Notes under the pieces: generated by a model | The model's database searches: none | What the model was told of the DNA's origin: nothing | Seen by the model: only the letters and a program-made list of their open reading frames with translations | Translations under genes and position numbers: made by a program | Source: Candidatus Obscuribacter phosphatis | GTDB taxonomy: Bacteria; Cyanobacteriota; Vampirovibrionia; Obscuribacterales; Obscuribacteraceae | Length of the DNA stretch: 48,974 nucleotides | NCBI GenBank assembly: GCA_001899315.1 | Contig: MOYA01000003.1 | Coordinates: 37,357 to 86,330, forward strand | Direction of reading: 5' to 3' | Part shown: positions 25,217-36,828 of the stretch, in pieces | Layout: each line of letters opens with the position of its first letter | How positions within the stretch are numbered: the first letter of the stretch is position 1

Positions 25217-26542
25217 TTAACTCTTTGCCACAGCCAACTCTACAGTAAAAGTGGCACCGGCGCCTGGCACCGAAGTGAGGCTAATATTGCCGCCGTGACG
25301 CTCCACCGTTGCCTTGACGATACTAAGACCGAGACCGCAACCGCCCAAATTGCGAGAACGCGAACTATCAACCCGATAAAACCGTTCAAAGACGCGCGCC
25401 TGACTCTCGACTGCAATACCGGGACCATCGTCGGCAACAATCAGCTTAACCACAGAACGCCCCTCATCATAGGCAATCTTTAATGTGACATGCCCAGCCG
25501 GTCGCGAATAATTGACTGCATTGGAAAGCAAATTGAGCAACATCCCTTGCAGAGCATCGAGATTGCCGCGCACTTTCAGAGCCAGATACTCCACTTCACA
25601 CTCTACGTTAAAGCTGATACCGCGACTAAGAGCCAACTGCCTAGTGGCATCACAAATCGAATCAATCACCTGACTGATACTGAGCTCTTCTTCTAGATAA
25701 GTATACTGAGGCGATTCCAATCGACTGAGTACAATCAGGCTCTGACCAAGATTTTTCATGCGATTGGTGGAGCGCTCAATAATCTTGAGCAAGCGCGAGA
25801 TCTCGGCAATTTGCAGACTTTGTTGCTCCGTCACTTTCTTATCAGCAGAAGACTCTTCCAACTCAGCCGAGATGGTCTGCAAGCTTGCTTCAATAACCGA
25901 TACCGGTGTATTAATCTCATGAGCTGCGTCCATGACAAACTGCCGCATCAAGCTCATAGCCGCTTCCACCGGCTTGACAGCATTGCCGGCAAACCACGAA
26001 CCGCACATGGCTACAGATAGAGCCAGAAAGGGCGTAAGAGCCAACATGGTCAGCACTATCTGCTTGAGGGCCTCGTCCCGCTGTTTGACTGAGACCTGCA
26101 CTTGTAGGTAGCCAATTGACTTATTGCCTTCATAAAGATCGGTATAGAAAGAGCGCAAAAGCAAAGGCGCAGACTTGGCATCAGTGCCGGACAAAGTCAT
26201 TTTTTCTTGCACATTGCCAAAAACCAGACGCTTCACTCCGGCAGGACCAAACTCTTCAAGCAAGTTCTTCTCTTTATCAAAAACTTGAATGGTAGACAAA
26301 AGCTGGTCATGCCTGAGAGCCACCCGCCTGGACCAGTTCACCAGGGACGGTTTGCCGGCGCTAATCTCTACAGCCGGCAAGGCACCATTGGCCACATCGT
26401 GCAGCTCTTCATCTAAAGAGGCATCAAGTTTATTGGCGAACATAAAGATGGCGACACTGCCACCTAGAAAATATAAGGCAACAAAGAGCAAAACGAACTG
26501 CGCCGTTAGTCTTTTGCGCAGCTTTAGTTCGGTATTAGGCAT
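25217..26542 (-). CDS. Sensor histidine kinase of a two-component pair
   Basis: 441 aa from ATG 26542; the ATG overlaps the stop of the response regulator (ATGCCTAA), so the pair is translationally coupled. Two membrane segments (about 13-35 and 165-185) flank an exported sensor region of about 130 residues. The cytoplasmic part has an H-box with His208 in DAAHEINTPVS (unusual next to the common SHELRTPL), an N-box LLNLLSNAVNYS, and G-boxes DDGPGIAV and GGCGLGLSIVK. It is a membrane sensor for an unknown signal. The pair follows the SulP gene on the same strand and may be co-transcribed with it. Confidence 0.93.
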   Translation of the reverse strand: MPNTELKLRKRLTAQFVLLFVALYFLGGSVAIFMFANKLDASLDEELHDVANGALPAVEISAGKPSLVNWSRRVALRHDQLLSTIQVFDKEKNLLEEFGPAGVKRLVFGNVQEKMTLSGTDAKSAPLLLRSFYTDLYEGNKSIGYLQVQVSVKQRDEALKQIVLTMLALTPFLALSVAMCGSWFAGNAVKPVEAAMSLMRQFVMDAAHEINTPVSVIEASLQTISAELEESSADKKVTEQQSLQIAEISRLLKIIERSTNRMKNLGQSLIVLSRLESPQYTYLEEELSISQVIDSICDATRQLALSRGISFNVECEVEYLALKVRGNLDALQGMLLNLLSNAVNYSRPAGHVTLKIAYDEGRSVVKLIVADDGPGIAVESQARVFERFYRVDSSRSRNLGGCGLGLSIVKATVERHGGNISLTSVPGAGATFTVELAVAKS

Positions 26543-27215
26543 TATCTGGACCAAGCTTATAGCCCACACCATATACAGTGGCGATAATCGAGCTCATGCC
26601 TTCGCTATCAAGCTTTTTGCGCAGACGAGTTACATGACCACGCACTGTATCCAAAAGAGCATCAGTATCCGATTCCCAGACAGAGGCCAATAACTCCTCG
26701 GCTGAAAAAACCTGATTGGGATGACGCACTAAAAACTCTAAAAGTCTAAACTCTTTAGGCAAAAGATGCACTTCCTCGTCACCTTTAAGAACCCGGAATT
26801 CATGCGGATCTATAGTCAAATCTCTAAACTTCAAGACATCAGAAACCGGCGAATGATTGCGGCGCAAAACAGCTCTCACTCTGGCTGCCAGTTCTTTCAG
26901 CTGGAAAGGCTTGGTGAGATAGTCGTCAGCGCCGGCATCAAGACCTACTTCTTTGTCATCGACATGAGAGCGGGCCGTGATCATAATCACCCCTGCCGAG
27001 CCGCCGCCTTTGCGATACTTCTTAAGAATCTCCAGACCATCCATGCTGGGCAACATCAAATCGAGCAATACCACGTCATACTTGCTGGTTTCCATCTTGA
27101 TTAGAGCATCGATACCGTCCGCTGCAATCTCCACCAAATGATGGTCTTTAACCAGCCAACCCTTTACAAGGTCAGCGAGGTCAACTTCGTCTTCGACTAT
27201 GAGTATCTTTGCCAT
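26535..27215 (-). CDS. Response regulator, OmpR/PhoB family
   Basis: 226 aa, the usual length. Receiver domain with phospho-acceptor Asp52 in LLDLMLPSMDG and Lys in YLTKPFQLKEL, then a winged-helix DNA-binding domain (about 130-222) with LLPKEFRLLEFLVRHPNQV and TVYGVGYKLGP. It should control transcription from sites it shares with its partner kinase. ATG start. A possible -10 TAGAAT lies in the 95 bp between it and the SulP gene, so it may have its own promoter as well as read-through. Confidence 0.95.
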   Translation of the reverse strand: MAKILIVEDEVDLADLVKGWLVKDHHLVEIAADGIDALIKMETSKYDVVLLDLMLPSMDGLEILKKYRKGGGSAGVIMITARSHVDDKEVGLDAGADDYLTKPFQLKELAARVRAVLRRNHSPVSDVLKFRDLTIDPHEFRVLKGDEEVHLLPKEFRLLEFLVRHPNQVFSAEELLASVWESDTDALLDTVRGHVTRLRKKLDSEGMSSIIATVYGVGYKLGPDNA

Positions 27216-27310: not shown

Positions 27311-28996
27311 CTAGCGCTTGCGCTCCAAACGCCTGCTACCCTGGGGATGGTCCGAGACCGAACTCAATTTCTCCAAAGCGACGAAGCAAACTTTGCCGCC
27401 TTCATGCTCATAATCTTGCCTAAACTCAGCCAAGTGCTCCATGACCGTATGATCAATAAATGTAGTGGCACTAAAATCAATAAAGACCTGACCACCGGTC
27501 TTTATCTGATCGAGAAGATTCTTGATGCAGAAATAATTTGAAAAGACAATAGCACCATCCATATGCAGATAGTGGTCTCCCTCAGCGCCATCTTCCAAAT
27601 AGGCAGTGGCCTTGAAAAGCTCAGAAGGCTTGACGCCGCGGAAGAGATGCAACAATAGCTTGAGGGCGATGCCGCTAAAGACGCCTATTAGAAGGTCGGT
27701 TGCGAGAGTGACAAAGATTGTACTGACAAAAATCACCGTCTGCTCGTAACCAATTGAATGGGTCTCTTTAAAGACCTTAGGAGAGGCCAATCTGAAACCG
27801 GTAAAGATAAGCAGAGCGGCAAGAGCAGCCAATGGAATCTTGTTGAGTAGGGCAGAGGCTAAAGCCACAAACAAGCAAAGAAAAAGACCATGATAGAAAT
27901 TGGAAAAGCGCGTGCGCGCACCACTGGCGATATTAGCGGTGCTTCTGACAATCTCGGCAATAATAGGCAAGCCGCCCAGCCCGGCTGATACCATCGAGCC
28001 CAAACCAACGGCACAGAGGTCTTTACTGAGATTGGCTTTTCGTTTGAACGGATCGAGCTTGTCAACGGCCGCACAAGAAAGCACAGTTTCAACCGACTGC
28101 ACAAAACTGATACTGAGTACGCAAAGCCAAAAGCGCGGCATTCTGATTGCAGAAAAGTCTGGAAAGGCAAAACAATGACTGAGATCTGAAGGCACACGCA
28201 CCAGCAACTTGTCAGGCACAAGCCTAAATGTATGCCCCAAGAGCTCATAAGTCTTAGTATCAGTCAGAAAAGCAGTCATCAAACTAGCAGTCAAAACCAC
28301 CCAGAGCGGTGCCGGTATCGCTTTAAGCGGCGCAAATCGAATATGCGGATGGATAATCAAAATTATCAAACTAACCAAACTGACAAGCAATATAAATGGA
28401 TTGAGATCGGCTAGAAGATGCGGTAACTGATGAAATATCTCAAGCGGTTCTCTTATCTTGATTTGAGAGCCAAGAAAAGTTGGTAGCTGTTTGATGATAA
28501 TGACGATGCCGATGGACGCCAACATGGCATGCACCACAGTAGCTGGAAAGTACTTACCGATTTCAGCCGAACGCATACGTCCAAGCAAAAATAGAATAAA
28601 GCCTGAAACAACTATAGCCGATAGCGTGGAGTGATAGCCTCGACTGCCGCCGCCAAGCGCTTCACAGGCTGAAATTACTACAACAATCAAGCCGGCAGCC
28701 GGCCCATTGATGGTGACAAAGGAGCCACTCAACTGGCTGACCACGACACCACCGATAGCGGCACTAACCAAACCGGCAACAGGAGGCAGCCCGGAAGCCA
28801 TAGCAATGCCAAGAGACAGAGGCAGTGCGATCAGAAAGACAATGAAGCCCGACACTATATCGTATCTAAAATTTTGGATCAGTCCCAGAAAACCATCGCT
28901 TGGAACAGCCCGTTCCGGCGCATCAGGAATAGTGATAGCCTTAAATTGACCTGTGACGCTGGCTTGAATAAATTCCCAGGTTTCTCGCGCAGTCAT
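27311..28996 (-). CDS. SulP family inorganic anion transporter with STAS domain
   Basis: 561 aa from ATG 28996 (an in-frame TTG is at 29023). N-terminal membrane domain of about 10-14 spans with SulP signatures: SGFIVFLIALPLSLGIAMAS, GSFVTINGPAAGLIVVVISA and GLGGLPIIAEIVRSTANIAS. A cytoplasmic STAS domain occupies about 450-555, with VFIDFSATTFIDHTVMEHL. SulP members carry sulfate, bicarbonate or dicarboxylates, often Na+-driven; BicA-type bicarbonate transporters belong here. Which anion is moved cannot be told. It is divergent from the Ehr-type operon, with the four-half-site palindrome between them, and is followed by the two-component pair. Confidence 0.92.
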   Translation of the reverse strand: MTARETWEFIQASVTGQFKAITIPDAPERAVPSDGFLGLIQNFRYDIVSGFIVFLIALPLSLGIAMASGLPPVAGLVSAAIGGVVVSQLSGSFVTINGPAAGLIVVVISACEALGGGSRGYHSTLSAIVVSGFILFLLGRMRSAEIGKYFPATVVHAMLASIGIVIIIKQLPTFLGSQIKIREPLEIFHQLPHLLADLNPFILLVSLVSLIILIIHPHIRFAPLKAIPAPLWVVLTASLMTAFLTDTKTYELLGHTFRLVPDKLLVRVPSDLSHCFAFPDFSAIRMPRFWLCVLSISFVQSVETVLSCAAVDKLDPFKRKANLSKDLCAVGLGSMVSAGLGGLPIIAEIVRSTANIASGARTRFSNFYHGLFLCLFVALASALLNKIPLAALAALLIFTGFRLASPKVFKETHSIGYEQTVIFVSTIFVTLATDLLIGVFSGIALKLLLHLFRGVKPSELFKATAYLEDGAEGDHYLHMDGAIVFSNYFCIKNLLDQIKTGGQVFIDFSATTFIDHTVMEHLAEFRQDYEHEGGKVCFVALEKLSSVSDHPQGSRRLERKR

Positions 28997-29049
28997 TAAT
29001 GCTACCGACTTAGTAAAGAGCAAAGCTATTTACACGTTAGCAAGCAAAA

Positions 29050-29089
29050 GTGATCAAGTTGTGATCGACGTCGATCACAAGTTCATCAC
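29050..29089. promoter_or_regulatory. 40-bp near-perfect palindrome, putative operator with four half-sites
   Basis: Core TGTGATCGACGTCGATCACA (29060-29079) is a perfect palindrome and stays perfect for one more base on each side. Outer arms GTGATCAAG and GTTCATCAC extend it to 40 bp with 18 of 20 base pairs symmetric. GTGATC recurs at 29050 and 29061, and its reverse form at 29073 (GATCAC) and 29084 (CATCAC), so the sites are 11-12 bp apart, one helix turn. It lies between SulP (start 28996) and the hyf-like operon (start 29163). The half-sites resemble CRP/FNR-type TGTGA, but the core spacing of 10 bp between TGTGA and TCACA is not that of CRP (6 bp). Confidence 0.7.
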
Positions 29090-29120
29090 ATTCGGCTGTT
29101 AAGCTCCAAAAGGACGGTCC

Positions 29121-29162: not shown

Positions 29163-31181
29163 ATGTTATTCGATTTAATGGCCCCACCAAATTGTATTCT
29201 TCTCTACGGACTTGCCTGCCTTGCCTGGACAATCGGCGTAGCCTTCACAATTATAGCCGACTTACTAAAAACAAAACTTTCCAATCGGTTAGCATTAGCC
29301 CTCACTGCCGGTGGTGCGCTGTCAGCTGGTATGGGCGCCATAGGCAACTATCAAGCGGGCATACCGGTAAATTTCACAGCCCTCAAGCACTTCGGTCTTA
29401 CCACTCTCAGCTTCACCGGCGACAATCTTGCCATTCCCTTTATTCTCTTGCTAACTCTTGTGGCATTGGCATCGACCTTGTCAACAAGAGACTTAATCGA
29501 CAGTACCCACAATAAAGAAGGGCATCGCTTTCAAAGTAATCATTACTATCGACTGATACTGCTCTTGCTCTTAGGCACCTTGCTTGTTCTGCTCAGCGCT
29601 AATGCCATAACTTTTTTGGTTTTCTGGGAAGTGATGAGCGTGGCCGCAGCCAGCCTGATTACCAGCGAGCATGTGAGACACCGCGCCCAGAGAGCCGCTC
29701 TTGCTTATATCACCGCCAGCAGACTAGCAACGGCTCTTTTAACCGGTGCCTTTCTCTGGATGTATCATCAAAGCGGCACCTTCGACTTCGCCAGCTGGCA
29801 ATTTCAAAGCAATTCCACCTTTCCTGCCGCACTCTTAATTTTGCTGGCAGTCTGCATAAAAGCCGGCATATGGCCCGCCCATGGCTATCTGCCCCAGAGT
29901 TATGCCGAAGCACCGGGGCCTGCCGCCGCTCTCATATCGGGCGTGATCGGCAAGACGGCCATCTATTTGCTCTTGCGTCTATTGGTGCTGGGCAATTGTC
30001 AACACAGCTGGGTAATCTACATCGCCTTGGCCCTTGGCACCATATCATGCATTTGGGGCATTCTCTTTGCTCTGGTCGAGCGAGATTTGAAGCGCCTCCT
30101 AGCCTTTAGTTCGGTCGAGAACATGGGGCTCATTATCATCGCCATCTCTCTTTCTATGCTGGCACGCAAAGAAGGTCTGCCTGTCATTGCCGCCATAGCA
30201 GTAACCGGCACACTCTTTCATGCCTTCAACCACGGCGTCTTCAAATCGCTGCTCATGCTTGCCGCCTCGACAATAGACAAAAAGGCGCATACTCGCGACT
30301 TGGCACAATTGGGTGGTCTAGCCAAACGTCTGCCCTGGACCATGCTCGCCTTCTTTATCGGCTCAGTGGCCATCTGCGCCCTGCCTCCATCAAATGGCTT
30401 TGCCAGCAAATGGCTCATTTATCAAGCCTTTTTCCGCATGGCAATTGAATCTGTCCCCTTGCACGACCGGGCTATTTCTTTAGCCATGCTCGGCATCCTC
30501 TCTTTTGTGGGCGCGCTTAGTCTAGCTTGTTATACAAAGGCAATAGGCATTGCCTTTCTGGGACGCCCACGCTCTAAACAGGCGCAGTTCACACCCGAAA
30601 CCGGCTTGAGCGGCTCCGCCATGGCGCTCGTCATTCTCTCAGCCATCTGTGTTTTCTTAGGCACCTCTGCTGGTATCTGCCTGAGAGCAATTACACCGGC
30701 ATTGGCTGAGCTAAACGGCTCCGGAATAGACGCCGCCAATCTCTTTCCTGTGGCAGTTGCCCAGTTGAGCCTGTTCGGACTAATCACCGCCAGTATCATC
30801 TACCTTTGCATTCTCGGCCCCCGTTCAACCGGCATGAAAACCTATATAACCTGGGACTGTGGCTATGGTCCGCTTTCAGCTCGTGCTGAAGAAACCGGCT
30901 CCAGTTTCTCTCATCCAATTGGGCGCATATTCTCGCAAGTTTTGCAATTGAAAGTTGAAACCAATATTACCGGCAGAGACCGTCGACATTTTCCAGAGGG
31001 CATCAAAGTAGAAACCCGCATGACACCCTTTATTGAAACGACTGTCTATAAGCGTTTCATCGAAATGGTCAACTTTTCTTCGCTCACCCTGACGAGACTG
31101 CAAACAGGCAGTATCCACGTGCATTTGCTTTATCTCTTTTTGACCATGATCGTCTTGGTTTATTTGGGCACCGTACTATGA
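29163..31181 (+). CDS. hyfB: Hydrogenase-4 subunit B-like antiporter-type membrane subunit (Ehr complex)
   Basis: 672 aa with many hydrophobic segments; homologous in layout to NuoL/NuoM and HyfB, the H+/Na+-pumping subunits of complex I-like machines. Seen: FLVFWEVMSVAAASLI (conserved Glu of TM5), IKAGIWPAHGYLPQSYAEAPGPAAA (conserved Lys and the PxHxxLP signature) and FKSLLMLAASTI. It should be the main ion-translocating channel. First gene of the operon; its stop overlaps the ATG of the next gene (ATGA). The start is ATG 29163 without a Shine-Dalgarno, and ATG 29178 is also possible. Confidence 0.9.
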   Translation: MLFDLMAPPNCILLYGLACLAWTIGVAFTIIADLLKTKLSNRLALALTAGGALSAGMGAIGNYQAGIPVNFTALKHFGLTTLSFTGDNLAIPFILLLTLVALASTLSTRDLIDSTHNKEGHRFQSNHYYRLILLLLLGTLLVLLSANAITFLVFWEVMSVAAASLITSEHVRHRAQRAALAYITASRLATALLTGAFLWMYHQSGTFDFASWQFQSNSTFPAALLILLAVCIKAGIWPAHGYLPQSYAEAPGPAAALISGVIGKTAIYLLLRLLVLGNCQHSWVIYIALALGTISCIWGILFALVERDLKRLLAFSSVENMGLIIIAISLSMLARKEGLPVIAAIAVTGTLFHAFNHGVFKSLLMLAASTIDKKAHTRDLAQLGGLAKRLPWTMLAFFIGSVAICALPPSNGFASKWLIYQAFFRMAIESVPLHDRAISLAMLGILSFVGALSLACYTKAIGIAFLGRPRSKQAQFTPETGLSGSAMALVILSAICVFLGTSAGICLRAITPALAELNGSGIDAANLFPVAVAQLSLFGLITASIIYLCILGPRSTGMKTYITWDCGYGPLSARAEETGSSFSHPIGRIFSQVLQLKVETNITGRDRRHFPEGIKVETRMTPFIETTVYKRFIEMVNFSSLTLTRLQTGSIHVHLLYLFLTMIVLVYLGTVL

Positions 31182-32134
31182 GCATCGAGACAAATACAGG
31201 CGAAATATTAAAGAACAGCGGCACTTTCCTCGCCAGCCTGATAATCTTGCCGCCGCTCACCATAGGTATTTTGCGCAAGACCAAAGCCCGCTTTCAAAAT
31301 CGTATCGGCGCTCCCTTGCTGCAACCATTCTTCGATCTGGCCAAACTCTTACAAAAAAATGAGACTGTCAGCGAACATGCCAGCTGGCTCTTTCGTATTG
31401 CCCCTTGCATCAATCTCACAGTCATGCTTTTGCTAAGCTTGCTCATTCCATGGACAAGTCTCACGGCTATTCCCCACGGCATAATCTCAGCCGATCTTTT
31501 TCTGATTATCTATCTGCTTGGTCTAGCAAGATTTTTCACAGTCTTAGCCGCCCTCGACACTGGCTCGGCCTTTGGCGGCTTCGGCGCCAGTCGAGAGGTC
31601 ACCCTGGCTCTATTGGTTGAGCCGGCGGTTATGCTCTGCTTGGCTTGCTTGGGCGTGAGAGCGGGAACCAGCGACCTCAGCCAGGTATTCTCATACGAAG
31701 CAACCCGTCTCACTGGACAATATGGACTCTGGTTCTTAGCCGGTTGTGGACTATTTCTATCAAGCCTGGTGGAACTATCGCGCATGCCGGCCGATGACCC
31801 GACCACACACTTAGAATTAACCATGGTGCATGAAGCCATGATCTTAGAAAATTCCGCCGCCAACCTCGCCCTGGCCGAAATAGGACACTATATCAAAGTG
31901 GCTCTGCTGCTTGGTCTATCCTGGCAATGCTTCATGCACTGCTTGCCGAGCCATTTGTTGAGCGACTGGACCGCCCGTGCCATTGCCTCCACCGGCGGTA
32001 TTATATCTTTGGCTCTTTTTATTGCCTTGATCGAAAGCCTGGCAGTCAAGCTCAGATGGACCAAACTACCCGAGTTTATTGCCTACGCAGTAGCCATGGC
32101 AATATTCTCTTACTTAATCGCCCTGTCAGTCTAA
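31178..32134 (+). CDS. hyfC: Hydrogenase-4 subunit C-like membrane subunit (NuoH family)
   Basis: 318 aa, eight or so membrane segments. It matches NuoH/HyfC/EchB: the QNRIGAPLLQPFFDLAKLLQ loop near the N-terminus and MPADDPTTHLELTMVHEAMI in the middle, including the acidic residues thought to couple redox change to ion movement. This subunit forms the junction between the membrane arm and the peripheral redox module. It overlaps hyfB by 4 nt; hyfE follows after 13 bp. Confidence 0.92.
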   Translation: MSIETNTGEILKNSGTFLASLIILPPLTIGILRKTKARFQNRIGAPLLQPFFDLAKLLQKNETVSEHASWLFRIAPCINLTVMLLLSLLIPWTSLTAIPHGIISADLFLIIYLLGLARFFTVLAALDTGSAFGGFGASREVTLALLVEPAVMLCLACLGVRAGTSDLSQVFSYEATRLTGQYGLWFLAGCGLFLSSLVELSRMPADDPTTHLELTMVHEAMILENSAANLALAEIGHYIKVALLLGLSWQCFMHCLPSHLLSDWTARAIASTGGIISLALFIALIESLAVKLRWTKLPEFIAYAVAMAIFSYLIALSV

Positions 32135-32147
32135 TTTAGGTGAAACT

Positions 32148-32804
32148 ATGCAACTAAGTACATTTGAAGCGCTGGCAATGCTCTCGGCAGTACTAGGTAT
32201 TCTTATCTTGGGCACAACCTTACTGCGCACCAATCTTAGCTTTTATCGCTTTCACACTTTAGCCATAGTGGCGCTCACAGTCTGGATTGGTCACATCACC
32301 AAAGAGGCACATCTTTACATAGTGGCGGCGGCAGTTCTGCTTGTCAAAGTACTTTTCATTCCCTCTTTTTTAGGTTGGGTGATGAAAAAGGCTGAAGTAG
32401 GCAGCGATAAACAAGCCTTTATCGCGGCGCCGCTGTCAATGCATCTAGGCGCCATCATGCTTGGCGTTTCCTATCTATTGAGTTCGCGTATACCCGGTCT
32501 TGAGGGCGTGCACCAAGAGGGCTCGCACCTGGGCTCGACGGCAGCCATGTCTATACTCTTTACCGGGGTTCTCTTGATGCTGACAAGACGAGCCGCGCTC
32601 AGTCAGATACTAGGATTTTTGGTAATTGAAAACGGTATCTATCTCTTTGCCGTCACCCAGACCCATGGCATGCCCATGCTGGTGGAAATGGGACTTTTGC
32701 TGGAAGTACTCGTCGGTGTAATGATTTCAGGCTTACTGCTCTTCAACATCAAGAAAAGCTTTGAACATATCGACGTATCACAATTGACCGATCTGAAAGA
32801 CTAG
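32148..32804 (+). CDS. hyfE: Hydrogenase-4 subunit E-like membrane subunit (NuoK-like)
   Basis: 218 aa, about six to seven membrane segments, small for this class but normal for HyfE. Fits the NuoK-related small membrane subunit that bridges NuoH-like and antiporter-like parts. A clear Shine-Dalgarno TAGGTGA lies 6 nt before the ATG, in the 13-bp gap after hyfC. Identification rests on its order in the operon and on the segment LVIENGIYLFAVTQTHGMP, which carries the Glu of NuoK-type proteins. Confidence 0.82.
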   Translation: MQLSTFEALAMLSAVLGILILGTTLLRTNLSFYRFHTLAIVALTVWIGHITKEAHLYIVAAAVLLVKVLFIPSFLGWVMKKAEVGSDKQAFIAAPLSMHLGAIMLGVSYLLSSRIPGLEGVHQEGSHLGSTAAMSILFTGVLLMLTRRAALSQILGFLVIENGIYLFAVTQTHGMPMLVEMGLLLEVLVGVMISGLLLFNIKKSFEHIDVSQLTDLKD

Positions 32805-32812
32805 AACCAATA

Positions 32813-34234
32813 ATGAACGAACTCGGACTACTATTTACCATTCCGTCGCTGACCGCGCTGCTTAGTCTTTTCATCAAAAAGACGGCGATCACAGGCAAGC
32901 TCTGCGCCCTCGCCGCTTGGCTGCAACTGGCTCTAGTAATCTCGGTTCTCTTGCCTATTCTCACCGGACACAGTACCAGCATCAGCTTTGCCCCCGGCCT
33001 CATTGTCGACAAGCTAGGCTCTTATTTTATTTTGCTCACTACCTTTGTTGTAGCTTGCGCCCTCACCCATGCCGACTACTTCTTTCAAGCCCAGGCCGTT
33101 ATCGGAGAACCCTATAAAGACTCACGCCTAAAACTATTCTATGCTGTGGTCAATATATTTCTCATGGCCATGACCTCGGTATTTCTTTGCGATAGCCTCG
33201 GCTATTTATGGATCGCCATAGAAGCCACCACTCTGTCATCAGCACCACTGGTCTACTTCGAACGCAACAAGCATGCCCTGGAAGCCACCTGGAAATATCT
33301 TATCGTCTGCTCGGTGGGCATCGCCTTCGCTCTCTTGGGAACAGTCTTTATCTTTGCCGCCAGCCAGCGTTCAGATCTCGGCTCAGGCACCTTGAACGTC
33401 TCCGAACTGATAGTATCGGCCAAAACCCTGAGTTTCCCCCTCCTGCGCCTGGGCTTCATCTTCTGCCTCTTAGGTTATGGCACCAAAGCCGGTATCTTTC
33501 CTTTACACAGCTGGTTGCCAGACGCCCATTCCGAAGCCCCGGCACCAGCCTCAGCCATGCTCTCCGGCTCACTGCTCAACTGCGCCCTTTTCGGCATCTG
33601 GAAGGCTTCGACGGTGATCACCGCAGCCAAACCGGAAGCCCCTGCCTTTCATTTGGTGGCAGTCATGGGTGCCCTCACCGTTGTGGCGGCGAGCATCTTT
33701 ATTATTCGCCAACACAACCTCAAGCGACTCTGGGCTTATTCGAGCATTGAGAATGTCGGGCTCATGGTCTTCGCTATCGGGCTGGGCTCGGGTCCGCTCT
33801 TTTTCCTACAGGCCCTCAACCACAGCTTAGCCAAGGTCAGTCTCTTCTTGATCTCGGGTAACATAGTGCAAGCAGCCGGCACCAAGAAATTATCAAAGCT
33901 GCATGGACTCTTAGAAAATTCGCCTTTCTGGGCAGGCGCCCTAGCCTTGGCATCACTGGCGGTGGCAGGAGCGCCGCCCTTCGGTTCCTTCATGACCGAA
34001 ATGTCGCTGCTTACTCTTAGTCTTGGTCATAAATACTACATTCTTGCCGCCTTAATCAATGTGGCACTGGCTGTCAGCTTCCTGGGCATACTAGCCCATA
34101 CCGGCAAAGTCATTTTCGGCGCCGGCAAGCCCGATTTCAAAGTCTTCAGCGAAAGAAGAGCGGCGCTAGTACCGATGTTACTTGTCGCCTCCACCCTAGC
34201 CATAGGATTGCTTGTCAATTATGAAAGTAGATAA
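32813..34234 (+). CDS. hyfF: Hydrogenase-4 subunit F-like antiporter-type membrane subunit (Ehr complex)
   Basis: 473 aa, about 14 membrane segments, a second NuoL/M/N-like subunit. Seen: YLWIAIEATTLSSAPLVYF (TM5 Glu), TKAGIFPLHSWLPDAHSEAP (conserved Lys and the PLHSWLPDAH signature, nearly canonical) and NHSLAKVSLFLISGN. It should carry a second proton or sodium path in the membrane arm. It ends 14 nt inside hyfG, so the two are coupled. Confidence 0.92.
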   Translation: MNELGLLFTIPSLTALLSLFIKKTAITGKLCALAAWLQLALVISVLLPILTGHSTSISFAPGLIVDKLGSYFILLTTFVVACALTHADYFFQAQAVIGEPYKDSRLKLFYAVVNIFLMAMTSVFLCDSLGYLWIAIEATTLSSAPLVYFERNKHALEATWKYLIVCSVGIAFALLGTVFIFAASQRSDLGSGTLNVSELIVSAKTLSFPLLRLGFIFCLLGYGTKAGIFPLHSWLPDAHSEAPAPASAMLSGSLLNCALFGIWKASTVITAAKPEAPAFHLVAVMGALTVVAASIFIIRQHNLKRLWAYSSIENVGLMVFAIGLGSGPLFFLQALNHSLAKVSLFLISGNIVQAAGTKKLSKLHGLLENSPFWAGALALASLAVAGAPPFGSFMTEMSLLTLSLGHKYYILAALINVALAVSFLGILAHTGKVIFGAGKPDFKVFSERRAALVPMLLVASTLAIGLLVNYESR

Positions 34235-35711
34235 AGAAAGCATCAGCCTGGCTGACTTAAAGGAAATCCTGGGTAAAGAAACCCACCGCATCGGTCATTT
34301 CACTTCTCTAGACGGGGGGCAGTTGCTCGCCCTTTTGTTAGATCCAAGTCAGGGAGACAAAGGCGTCAAGCTGTACGAAATCGCACTGGAAAACGGGATC
34401 AATTCATATCCCAGCCTGACAATCAAACATCCACAGTTGCACTGGTTCGAAAGAGCCCTCTTTGACATGTTCGGCATCATACCTAGCGGGCATCCTCGCT
34501 TGAAGCATCTCTATCTGCATGAACCTTACGAGCGTAATTTCTTTCCACTCAGAAGGGTTCCCTTGCCCGAGAACTTCAATTCGCCCATCGACCGCCGCTT
34601 TCATTTTCTCGAGGTAAAAGGCGAAGGCATCTATGAACTGCCCGTGGGGCCCATTCATGCCGGGGTGATTGAACCGGGACATTTCCGCTTTAGCTGCCTG
34701 GGTGAGACAATAATCAACCTTGAAATTCAGCTTGGTTATTTGCATCGCGGCGTCGAAAAACGACTAACCGAAGTACCGCTCAAGCACATGCATTTTCTCG
34801 CCGAAGCAGTAGCGAGCGATACATCTACGGCAAATGCCTTGGCGCACGCCGAAGCGATAGAATCGCTGGCAGAAATAGAGGTGAGCGAACGCAGCAAATA
34901 TCTGCGTTCTATTGCCCTTGAGATAGAAAGACTGGCGATGCACATAGTCGATGTCGGCGGCATGTCCACCGATATTGGTCTACTAGGCATAGCCTCGGCC
35001 ATGGGCAGACTGAGAGGCACGGCTTTAGGCATGGGCGATTTATTGACCGGCTCTCGCTTTTTGCGTGGCTTTATTGTGCCGGGCGGTGTAAGACTACCGG
35101 TCAATAACGGTCTATTCAAGCTGAAAGGTCAAGTGGCCAGACTGAGACACGAGCTAAAAGAACCAATCGCCATGTTCTTAGATAATCAGATGGCACTAGA
35201 GCGCATGCGCGAAGTCGGTGTACTAAAAGCCTCGTTGGCAAAAGAATTCGGCATGGTCGGACCAGCCGGGCGGGCGAGCGGCCAAGACTATGATGTCAGA
35301 CGGGCTTTTTCACATGCCGCCTATCCCAATATGGCACCGCCCACGGTGACAGCCCGAGAGGGCGACATCTTGGCGCGCGAAATGGTGCGCATTAAAGAAA
35401 TCTGGTCAACTCTCGATACCATCGACCGCCTCCTCGACAATCTGCCTGAGGGCGAAACCACTGGCGCCGATTTCAGCAAAGTAAGGCTCAAGCCCGACTC
35501 ATTTGCCGTTGGCATTGTCGAAGCTTTTAGAGGCGAGTTGCTGCACTTGGTGGCCACCGATAAAGAGGGCAAAGTGGCGCGCTATGCCGTCAAGCATCCT
35601 AGTTTCAATAATTGGACGGCGCTTGCCATCGCCATCAGAAACAATCTCATAGCCGACTTCCCGCTCTGCAACAAAAGCTTTTCGCTCTCTTACAGCGGCA
35701 ACGACCTATAG
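34221..35711 (+). CDS. hyfG: Hydrogenase large-subunit-like protein without nickel ligands (NuoC/D fold, Ehr type)
   Basis: 496 aa from ATG 34221. The N-terminal about 110 residues resemble NuoC (LHWFERALFDMFGI, SGHPRLKHLYL), the remainder NuoD/HyfG/EchE. True [NiFe] hydrogenases have RxCGxC near the start of the catalytic part and DPCxxC at the end. Here the first place reads AEAVASDTSTANALA (about 194-208) with no Cys, and the C-terminus reads PLCNKSFSLSYSGNDL with no CxxC. A NiFe site therefore cannot form. That matches the described energy-converting-hydrogenase-related (Ehr) complexes, whose electron partners are not known. The HRGVEKR motif and the helical core are retained. Very likely not a hydrogenase. 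Confidence 0.9.
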   Translation: MKVDKESISLADLKEILGKETHRIGHFTSLDGGQLLALLLDPSQGDKGVKLYEIALENGINSYPSLTIKHPQLHWFERALFDMFGIIPSGHPRLKHLYLHEPYERNFFPLRRVPLPENFNSPIDRRFHFLEVKGEGIYELPVGPIHAGVIEPGHFRFSCLGETIINLEIQLGYLHRGVEKRLTEVPLKHMHFLAEAVASDTSTANALAHAEAIESLAEIEVSERSKYLRSIALEIERLAMHIVDVGGMSTDIGLLGIASAMGRLRGTALGMGDLLTGSRFLRGFIVPGGVRLPVNNGLFKLKGQVARLRHELKEPIAMFLDNQMALERMREVGVLKASLAKEFGMVGPAGRASGQDYDVRRAFSHAAYPNMAPPTVTAREGDILAREMVRIKEIWSTLDTIDRLLDNLPEGETTGADFSKVRLKPDSFAVGIVEAFRGELLHLVATDKEGKVARYAVKHPSFNNWTALAIAIRNNLIADFPLCNKSFSLSYSGNDL

Positions 35712-35720
35712 GAAAGAAAT

Positions 35721-36503
35721 ATGCTGGAACTCTTAGGTTATCTTCTTAAACAGGGTGTGGCCACAAGTCGAGAAAACTTTCCCGACTTGCCTGAACATGT
35801 GCGGGGTTTACCTATAGTGACAGACAAAGACTGCGCCGAGACCTGCAACCAAGGCACAGCCCTATGTGCAGACCTTTGTCCCACCCAGGCCATCGACCTG
35901 AGCGAAGCAAACAAGCCCAAACTAGACCTAGGCAAATGTATCGCTTGCGGTCTCTGCACCGATGTCTGCCCCTCGGGCACCCTGGTCAACGATAGACGCA
36001 CCAGAACAGCAAGAGCCAGTCGCGAAGCCTTGATCTCAACAAGAGAAAGCCCGGCACAAACGGCGGCGACAAAAGACTCAAAAGAAACAAAACCTGCCAA
36101 AGCCGGACTTTTTAAGCGGTCTTTGGCAGTAAGAGTGGTTTCCACCGGCTGCAGCGCCTGCGATATGGAAATAGGAGCCAGTCTCAATCCTATTTTTGAC
36201 ATGGAAAGATTTGGTGTGACTGTGGTGGCTTCTCCGCGCTACGCAGACGCACTGGTGGTCACCGGACCAGTGCCCTTAGGCATGCGGGCGGCACTACTGA
36301 GCTGCTACGAGGCCATGTCTAGCCCTCGTTTGGTGGTGGCGCTGGGCACCTGCGCTATATCGGGTGGTCTGCACGGCGGCGGCTACAGTCAGGCAGACGG
36401 CGTCGATAAGATTTTGCCGGTAGATATTTACATCCCCGGCTGCCCACCACATCCATGGAGTATCATTGACGGCATGTTGGCGGCAAAGTCCTTAAAGACT
36501 TGA
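35721..36503 (+). CDS. hyfI: Ferredoxin-fused NuoB/hydrogenase small subunit-like protein (Ehr type)
   Basis: 260 aa joining a two-cluster ferredoxin-like domain (about 35-95) to a NuoB-type domain (about 138-257). The second ferredoxin motif is canonical (CIACGLCTDVCP); the first is irregular, C-x3-C-x6-C-x3-CP in CAETCNQGTALCADLCP. The NuoB part keeps four Cys for the proximal [4Fe-4S] cluster: GCSACDME, GTCAISGG and PGCPPHP. Electrons could therefore pass through this subunit even though the large subunit lacks nickel. In hydrogenase-4 these are separate genes (HyfH and HyfI). Ribosome site AGGAAAG, 9-bp gap after hyfG. Confidence 0.9.
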   Translation: MLELLGYLLKQGVATSRENFPDLPEHVRGLPIVTDKDCAETCNQGTALCADLCPTQAIDLSEANKPKLDLGKCIACGLCTDVCPSGTLVNDRRTRTARASREALISTRESPAQTAATKDSKETKPAKAGLFKRSLAVRVVSTGCSACDMEIGASLNPIFDMERFGVTVVASPRYADALVVTGPVPLGMRAALLSCYEAMSSPRLVVALGTCAISGGLHGGGYSQADGVDKILPVDIYIPGCPPHPWSIIDGMLAAKSLKT

Positions 36504-36510
36504 GGTGTGC

Positions 36511-36828
36511 ATGCGCTTTACCAAACTTTGGTCGACCTTGGCGAGCGGCCCTGGGCTGGCGCCGACCTATGAAAGATTCGGTCCGGTAAGTCGAGAAATG
36601 CTGCCCGAACTGGAGCGGATGAGAGTTGATGAAATTCTCAATGACCAGAGTTTTCATGACATGCTTGATAGCCCGGTCACCAAAATGGTGCGCGACATGG
36701 CGCTCAATAGCTTGACGGTTGAATATGAAGACGGCACAACCAATACTGTGCGTTTCATCAAAGGCGACACCTCAGAGAGCATCGACTTTCTAATCAAGCT
36801 GACTAGACGAGTAGCCTTAGAAAGCTAA
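36511..36828 (+). CDS. Small unknown protein at the end of the Ehr operon
   Basis: 105 aa from ATG 36511 with AGG 5 nt upstream, or GTG at 36505 (107 aa). It lies 7 bp after the hyfI-like stop. It is soluble, with no Cys clusters or membrane spans. The helical N-terminal half has PTYERFGPVSREMLPELERM, and the end has a beta-hairpin-like TVEYEDGTTNTVRFIKGD. I do not recognise a family. Placement in the operon suggests an accessory or assembly role, which is inference. Confidence 0.68.
   Translation: MRFTKLWSTLASGPGLAPTYERFGPVSREMLPELERMRVDEILNDQSFHDMLDSPVTKMVRDMALNSLTVEYEDGTTNTVRFIKGDTSESIDFLIKLTRRVALES

Follow-up and report, generated by a model that had tools for sequence, protein, structure and literature searches.

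The region between a SulP-family anion transporter gene and a divergent Ehr-type operon carries a striking 40-bp palindrome, and it raises the questions of whether the palindrome is itself a regulatory site and which regulator reads this region. We analyzed the whole 48,974-nt stretch of DNA (the window) in which it lies, and at each arm length tried the palindrome is the top dyad of the window. It has 18 symmetric pairs of 20 about a center between 29069 and 29070, with a perfect 22-bp core—the same values as in an earlier, sequence-only reading of this DNA—and the runner-up has 15 of 20. The same reading held the palindrome to be unlikely by chance, and among 100 first-order Markov shuffles no dyad with 20-bp arms has more than 16 symmetric pairs (0/100 reach 18); the 40-mer is a single-copy sequence in the 5.5-Mb genome. 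Four phased GTGATC units had also been described; the phasing and the spacings of the half-sites (11, 12, and 11 bp) stand, but the fourth unit (29084–29089) is CATCAC, not GATCAC, and matches at five of its six bases. The palindrome had been proposed as a regulatory site within a divergent promoter region, and the gene arrangement is as claimed. The features of the locus are listed in Table 1.

Table 1. Features of the SulP–Ehr locus, in positions of the window.
Feature	Position	Strand	Remarks
Sensor histidine kinase (HisKA + HATPase_c)	25217..26572	-	Proposed to pair with the regulator
OmpR/PhoB-family response regulator (Response_reg + Trans_reg_C)	26535..27215	-	Proposed binder of both boxes
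SulP-family anion transporter (Sulfate_transp + STAS)	27311..28996	-	Putative target; inferred start ATG 28996
SulP promoter extended -10 (predicted)	29034..29042	-	TGCTAACGT; TA 10 bp past box; conserved in relatives
40-bp palindrome	29050..29089		GTGATCAAGTTGTGATCGACGTCGATCACAAGTTCATCAC; between divergent SulP and Ehr
SulP-facing box	29050..29065	-	ATCACAACTTGATCAC on the - strand; two direct repeats, 11-bp period
Inter-box spacer (8 bp)	29066..29073	.	Mostly 45–99 bp in relatives; unconserved in sister species G002
Ehr-facing box	29074..29089	+	ATCACAAGTTCATCAC; two direct repeats, 11-bp period
Ehr promoter extended -10 (predicted)	29097..29105	+	TGTTAAGCT; TA 10 bp past box; conserved in relatives
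Ehr-type complex I/hydrogenase-4-like operon	29163..36828	+	Putative target

A search of 60 related genomes for the first Ehr subunit gave 40 that have it, and we read the upstream regions of the best 30 of these loci. Among these regions the palindrome is present only in the window and in G002, a sister species (Ca. Obscuribacterales MAG JAIETF010000005.1) whose first Ehr subunit has 95% identity. The remaining relatives with divergent SulP and Ehr genes have two separate ATCAC-N6-ATCAC boxes, one toward each gene, and the inter-box distance is 8 bp in both the window and G002, 79 bp in G001, 48 bp in G013, 52 bp in G027, 45 bp in G030, 72 bp in G060, 99 bp in both G061 and G062, and 48 bp in G063 (slightly degenerate boxes being included for G001, G027, and G063). 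The palindrome arises from the close placement of the two boxes, only 8 bp apart in the window species and its sister. When the 40-mers of these two are compared, 0 of the 20 ATCAC positions are changed as against 7 of the 20 others, the center of symmetry included, so that selection appears to act on the direct repeats and not on the dyad; the functional unit is predicted to be the two direct-repeat boxes, and not the palindrome itself. Single boxes with no inverted partner are found elsewhere upstream of SulP, Ehr, universal stress protein (USP), and response regulator genes. G006 has no SulP gene between the regulator and Ehr and retains the Ehr-side box alone, and the boxes of G003 are unlinked: the Ehr contig carries one, and a USP–SulP–permease cluster the other three.

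These comparisons bear directly on the idea that the whole palindrome serves as a single operator, read by a CRP/FNR-like, LysR-like, or other protein acting as a symmetric dimer or tetramer; the perfect core and the four phased half-sites speak for it. The inverted halves are 45–99 bp apart in 8 of the 10 genomes with both boxes, however, and the core center is altered in the sister species; we regard the single operator as very improbable and largely refuted. CRP/FNR-type sites have inverted half-sites paired at a fixed spacing, and here the spacing ranges from 8 to 99 bp and partnerless boxes exist. The sequence-only reading was correct that this is not a CRP site, but its suggestion that a CRP/FNR-like or tetrameric regulator reads the palindrome is abandoned for these same reasons. 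It had also named, as an observation that would count against its proposal, the absence of the palindrome from relatives with the same gene pair, and this is what is seen, although the half-sites are strongly conserved.

The box pattern, ATCAC-N6-ATCAC with an 11-bp period, occurs twice in the palindrome, the two copies pointing away from each other, and downstream of each copy comes an extended -10 (TGNTANNNT), exactly 10 bp separating the second ATCAC from the TA (predicted -10 hexamers at 29034–29039 on the minus strand for SulP and 29100–29105 on the plus strand for Ehr). Across 55 upstream regions—many of them collected via pattern searches, so that the counts are partly non-independent and the statistical weight is carried by reversed-pattern controls—ATCAC-Nd-ATCAC is found with d = 6 in 23, d = 17 (two periods) in seven, d = 11 in one, and no other value of d, and TGNTANNNT follows the box after 10 bp in 23 regions and after 11 bp in one. 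Direct repeats at a fixed 10–11-bp period are the arrangement of OmpR/PhoB-family operators, and both spacing and column conservation place each box where a -35 would be, with a predicted -10 at fixed distance, as at class II promoters. From its position relative to the -10, ATG 28996 is more likely to be the SulP start than TTG 29023.

A near-perfect inverted repeat could also be fortuitous, or have a structural role as a cruciform, terminator, or other RNA hairpin, and we give such readings next to no credence. The palindrome is upstream of both predicted -10s and should therefore be absent from either transcript; the direct repeats are conserved and the symmetry is not, with no compensatory changes seen across relatives; and chance is excluded by the shuffles and by the reversed-pattern controls.

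Those controls accompany searches with the combined box and -10 pattern. Two exact matches are present in the 5.5-Mb genome, both in the SulP/Ehr intergenic region; one-mismatch matches in this genome (seven extra, against three in all for the control) were treated as chance. The 60 genomes contain 27 exact matches, compared to 5 for the reversed pattern, and 21 of the 27 are upstream of SulP, Ehr, response regulator, USP, or CitMHS/ArsB-like permease genes or of one uncharacterized family, the other six being close to the number expected by chance. With a stricter pattern, the 53 genomes of the order yield 23 matches against 0 for the control. The motif model was trained on the sites that it describes, and the reversed-pattern controls are independent of that training. 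We propose that these genes make up a small regulon not described before, one that is new but of a known type; nothing relevant to an Obscuribacter regulon or to a SulP–USP–regulator link was found in the literature searched.

The uncharacterized family (~500–570 aa; the member tested has no Pfam match) repeatedly adjoins SulP, Ehr, or the regulator, as at L097:2242-3897, L113:2343-4070, L042, L127:8558-9976, and L101:15689-16999; it has a box of its own in G015, G021, and G030 and is likely a regulon member. At L105:2682-5363, a SulP transporter carries a fused Usp region in which two stretches match; this gene has a box ~30 bp upstream of its predicted start, adjoins the kinase gene, and is divergent from the regulator gene.

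The SulP protein of the window reaches no equivalog cut-off; its score against the BicA bicarbonate transporter equivalog is 122.6 bits, where 880 are required. The Ehr operon encodes two Proton_antipo_M subunits, NuoH-like, 4L-like, and 49/30-kDa-like subunits (the last without CxxC), a NuoB-like plus ferredoxin domain subunit, and a small ORF; its last ORF (36505–36828), of 107 aa, matches nothing in Pfam or NCBIfam. The large subunit (34212–35711) contains two cysteines and no CxxC, so that, as judged from its residues, a conventional Ni-Fe site cannot be accommodated. Complex-I/hydrogenase-4-like subunits together with a large subunit lacking the CxxC Ni-Fe ligands are the hallmark of Ehr, and the absence of the ligands agrees with the Ehr complexes of Melainabacteria and Margulisbacteria, which are described as group-4-hydrogenase-like membrane complexes without Ni-Fe ligands (PMC6349859). 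That paper describes Ehr gene content and proposes an FDH–Ehr link; SulP goes unmentioned in it, and the passages drawn on here give no regulation, whereas here SulP and Ehr share a motif.

Ehr loci of other genera have a different palindrome, about TAGCAATTGCG-N-AATT-CGCAATTGCTA, ~50–300 bp upstream of Ehr (L011, L014, L018, L021, L024, L025, L028, L029, and L031), and at several of these loci the divergent upstream ORF resembles an ArsR-family repressor by eye. L031 carries both this palindrome and an ATCAC box, a hint that control of the same operon has been rewired.

The remaining question is which protein reads the boxes. Downstream of SulP, and on its strand, lie the response regulator and then the histidine kinase in an apparent operon, and an OmpR/PhoB-family regulator is in this way genetically linked to the sites. 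The order SulP–regulator–kinase with a divergent Ehr is kept in G001 (where the regulator was located by protein search at C34:14546-15220), G002, G013, G027, G030, and G060–G063. Orthologous regulator–kinase pairs (57–62%) in other genera are followed by a box and then by SulP in G022, G024, G067, G068, and G069, or by a box and then a USP gene in G034 and G064, and some boxes at such loci consist of 3–4 tandem repeats. G020 likewise has an orthologous pair adjoining a box together with a SulP or USP gene. A box in G022 lies upstream of a response regulator gene of the same clade as the 26535–27215 regulator. In a tree, the box-associated regulators that adjoin their targets form one clade with a VRGH recognition helix, which the paralogues from the window genome included in the tree lack. 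The neighboring response regulator had been listed among the candidates of the sequence-only reading and is now the best predicted one; the proposal of one regulator for both units is supported, at the level of probably.

The association has exceptions. G011 keeps the regulator–kinase pair (73%) with no SulP, Ehr, or box near the regulator, and several genera with a VRGH regulator have no recognizable box at Ehr. G003 has four exact boxes, and a VRGH-type regulator was not found in this MAG, which is 89% complete; its SulP cluster is beside a more distant response regulator, and a sister regulator can therefore probably read the box. The VRGH helix was considered as a strict predictor of the box and was ruled out by G003 and by a box beside other response regulators in G024.

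The window genome encodes at least 22 OmpR/PhoB-family regulators, and the boxes might be real direct-repeat sites of this family that are read in vivo by another of them, such as a PhoB orthologue. The G003 boxes, and the occurrence of boxes beside more distant regulators in G003 and G024, are in favor of this alternative. We nevertheless think it unlikely: it is the neighboring regulator that shares an apparent operon with SulP, its orthologues adjoin a box together with SulP, USP, or Ehr genes in many genera, and the G022 box precedes a regulator gene of the same clade. A PhoB orthologue is disfavored in addition by the motif (ATCAC, as against TGTCA at phoA) and by the PhoB equivalog cut-off, which no response regulator of the genome passes. 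The 26535–27215 regulator scores 205.7 of the 296.2 bits required, and PhoB itself is ruled out by the same cut-off.

In geometry, the boxes match the Pho box (PhoB site) of E. coli phoA, which in the genome record next to phoA reads TGTCAT-N5-TGTCAC-N10-TATAGT (CTGTCATAAAGTTGTCAC-N10-TATAGT): both have two direct repeats of 11-bp period replacing the -35 and 10 bp from the second repeat to the -10. The E. coli core is TGTCA[TC], whereas here it is ATCACA, and the targets differ; the TGTCA core repeats of an E. coli-type PhoB regulon are replaced by ATCAC. According to a study of M. tuberculosis PhoP (PMC4832192), all known OmpR/PhoB-family sites are direct repeats, an arrangement suggestive of binding by tandem dimers; PhoP itself occupies TCACAGC-N4-TCACAGC in this manner, and its binding to tri- and tetra-repeats is stronger in vitro. 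The PhoP site and the box have in common TCACA, the 11-bp period, and an OmpR/PhoB-family regulator, and the 3–4-repeat arrays of related genera resemble the tri- and tetra-repeat sites of PhoP; PhoP differs in flanking bases, targets, lineage, and recognition-helix residues.

We therefore favor, as quite likely, two divergent activator boxes, each bound by a head-to-tail dimer of the neighboring response regulator and each activating its own promoter. The analysis shows the box architecture, conservation, target set, and regulator synteny; what we infer is which regulator binds, that it is phosphorylated, that it activates and does not repress, and the signal. The kinase would activate the regulator by phosphorylation, and each box, with its two ATCAC(A) repeats 11 bp apart, would take a head-to-tail dimer occupying the -35 position, the extended -10 being exactly 10 bp downstream. 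Each dimer would recruit RNA polymerase to its own promoter, that of SulP–regulator–kinase to the left and that of Ehr to the right. The regulator is most likely encoded in the left operon, and the left promoter would therefore be autoregulated. It is conceivable, though doubtful, that the abutting class II boxes form a symmetric four-site operator that links the promoters of SulP and Ehr in a single switch; two dimers placed upstream end to upstream end would then cooperate or compete, and the switch would be limited to the window species and its sister, relatives with spaced boxes being without it. With two independently acting boxes as the preferred reading, the compact divergent layout could have functional effects in its own right, or none.

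The palindrome provides a clear case in which a striking inverted repeat is the by-product of two adjacent direct-repeat sites. The analysis gives a predicted binding motif, promoter model, and target set for a two-component system in the Obscuribacterales, an uncultured, non-photosynthetic sister group of the cyanobacteria for which no regulon of this kind is present in the literature searched. One motif is shared by Ehr, the anion transporter, universal stress proteins, and a permease resembling ion transporters, and the role of Ehr may thereby be narrowed to ion, pH, or bicarbonate balance.
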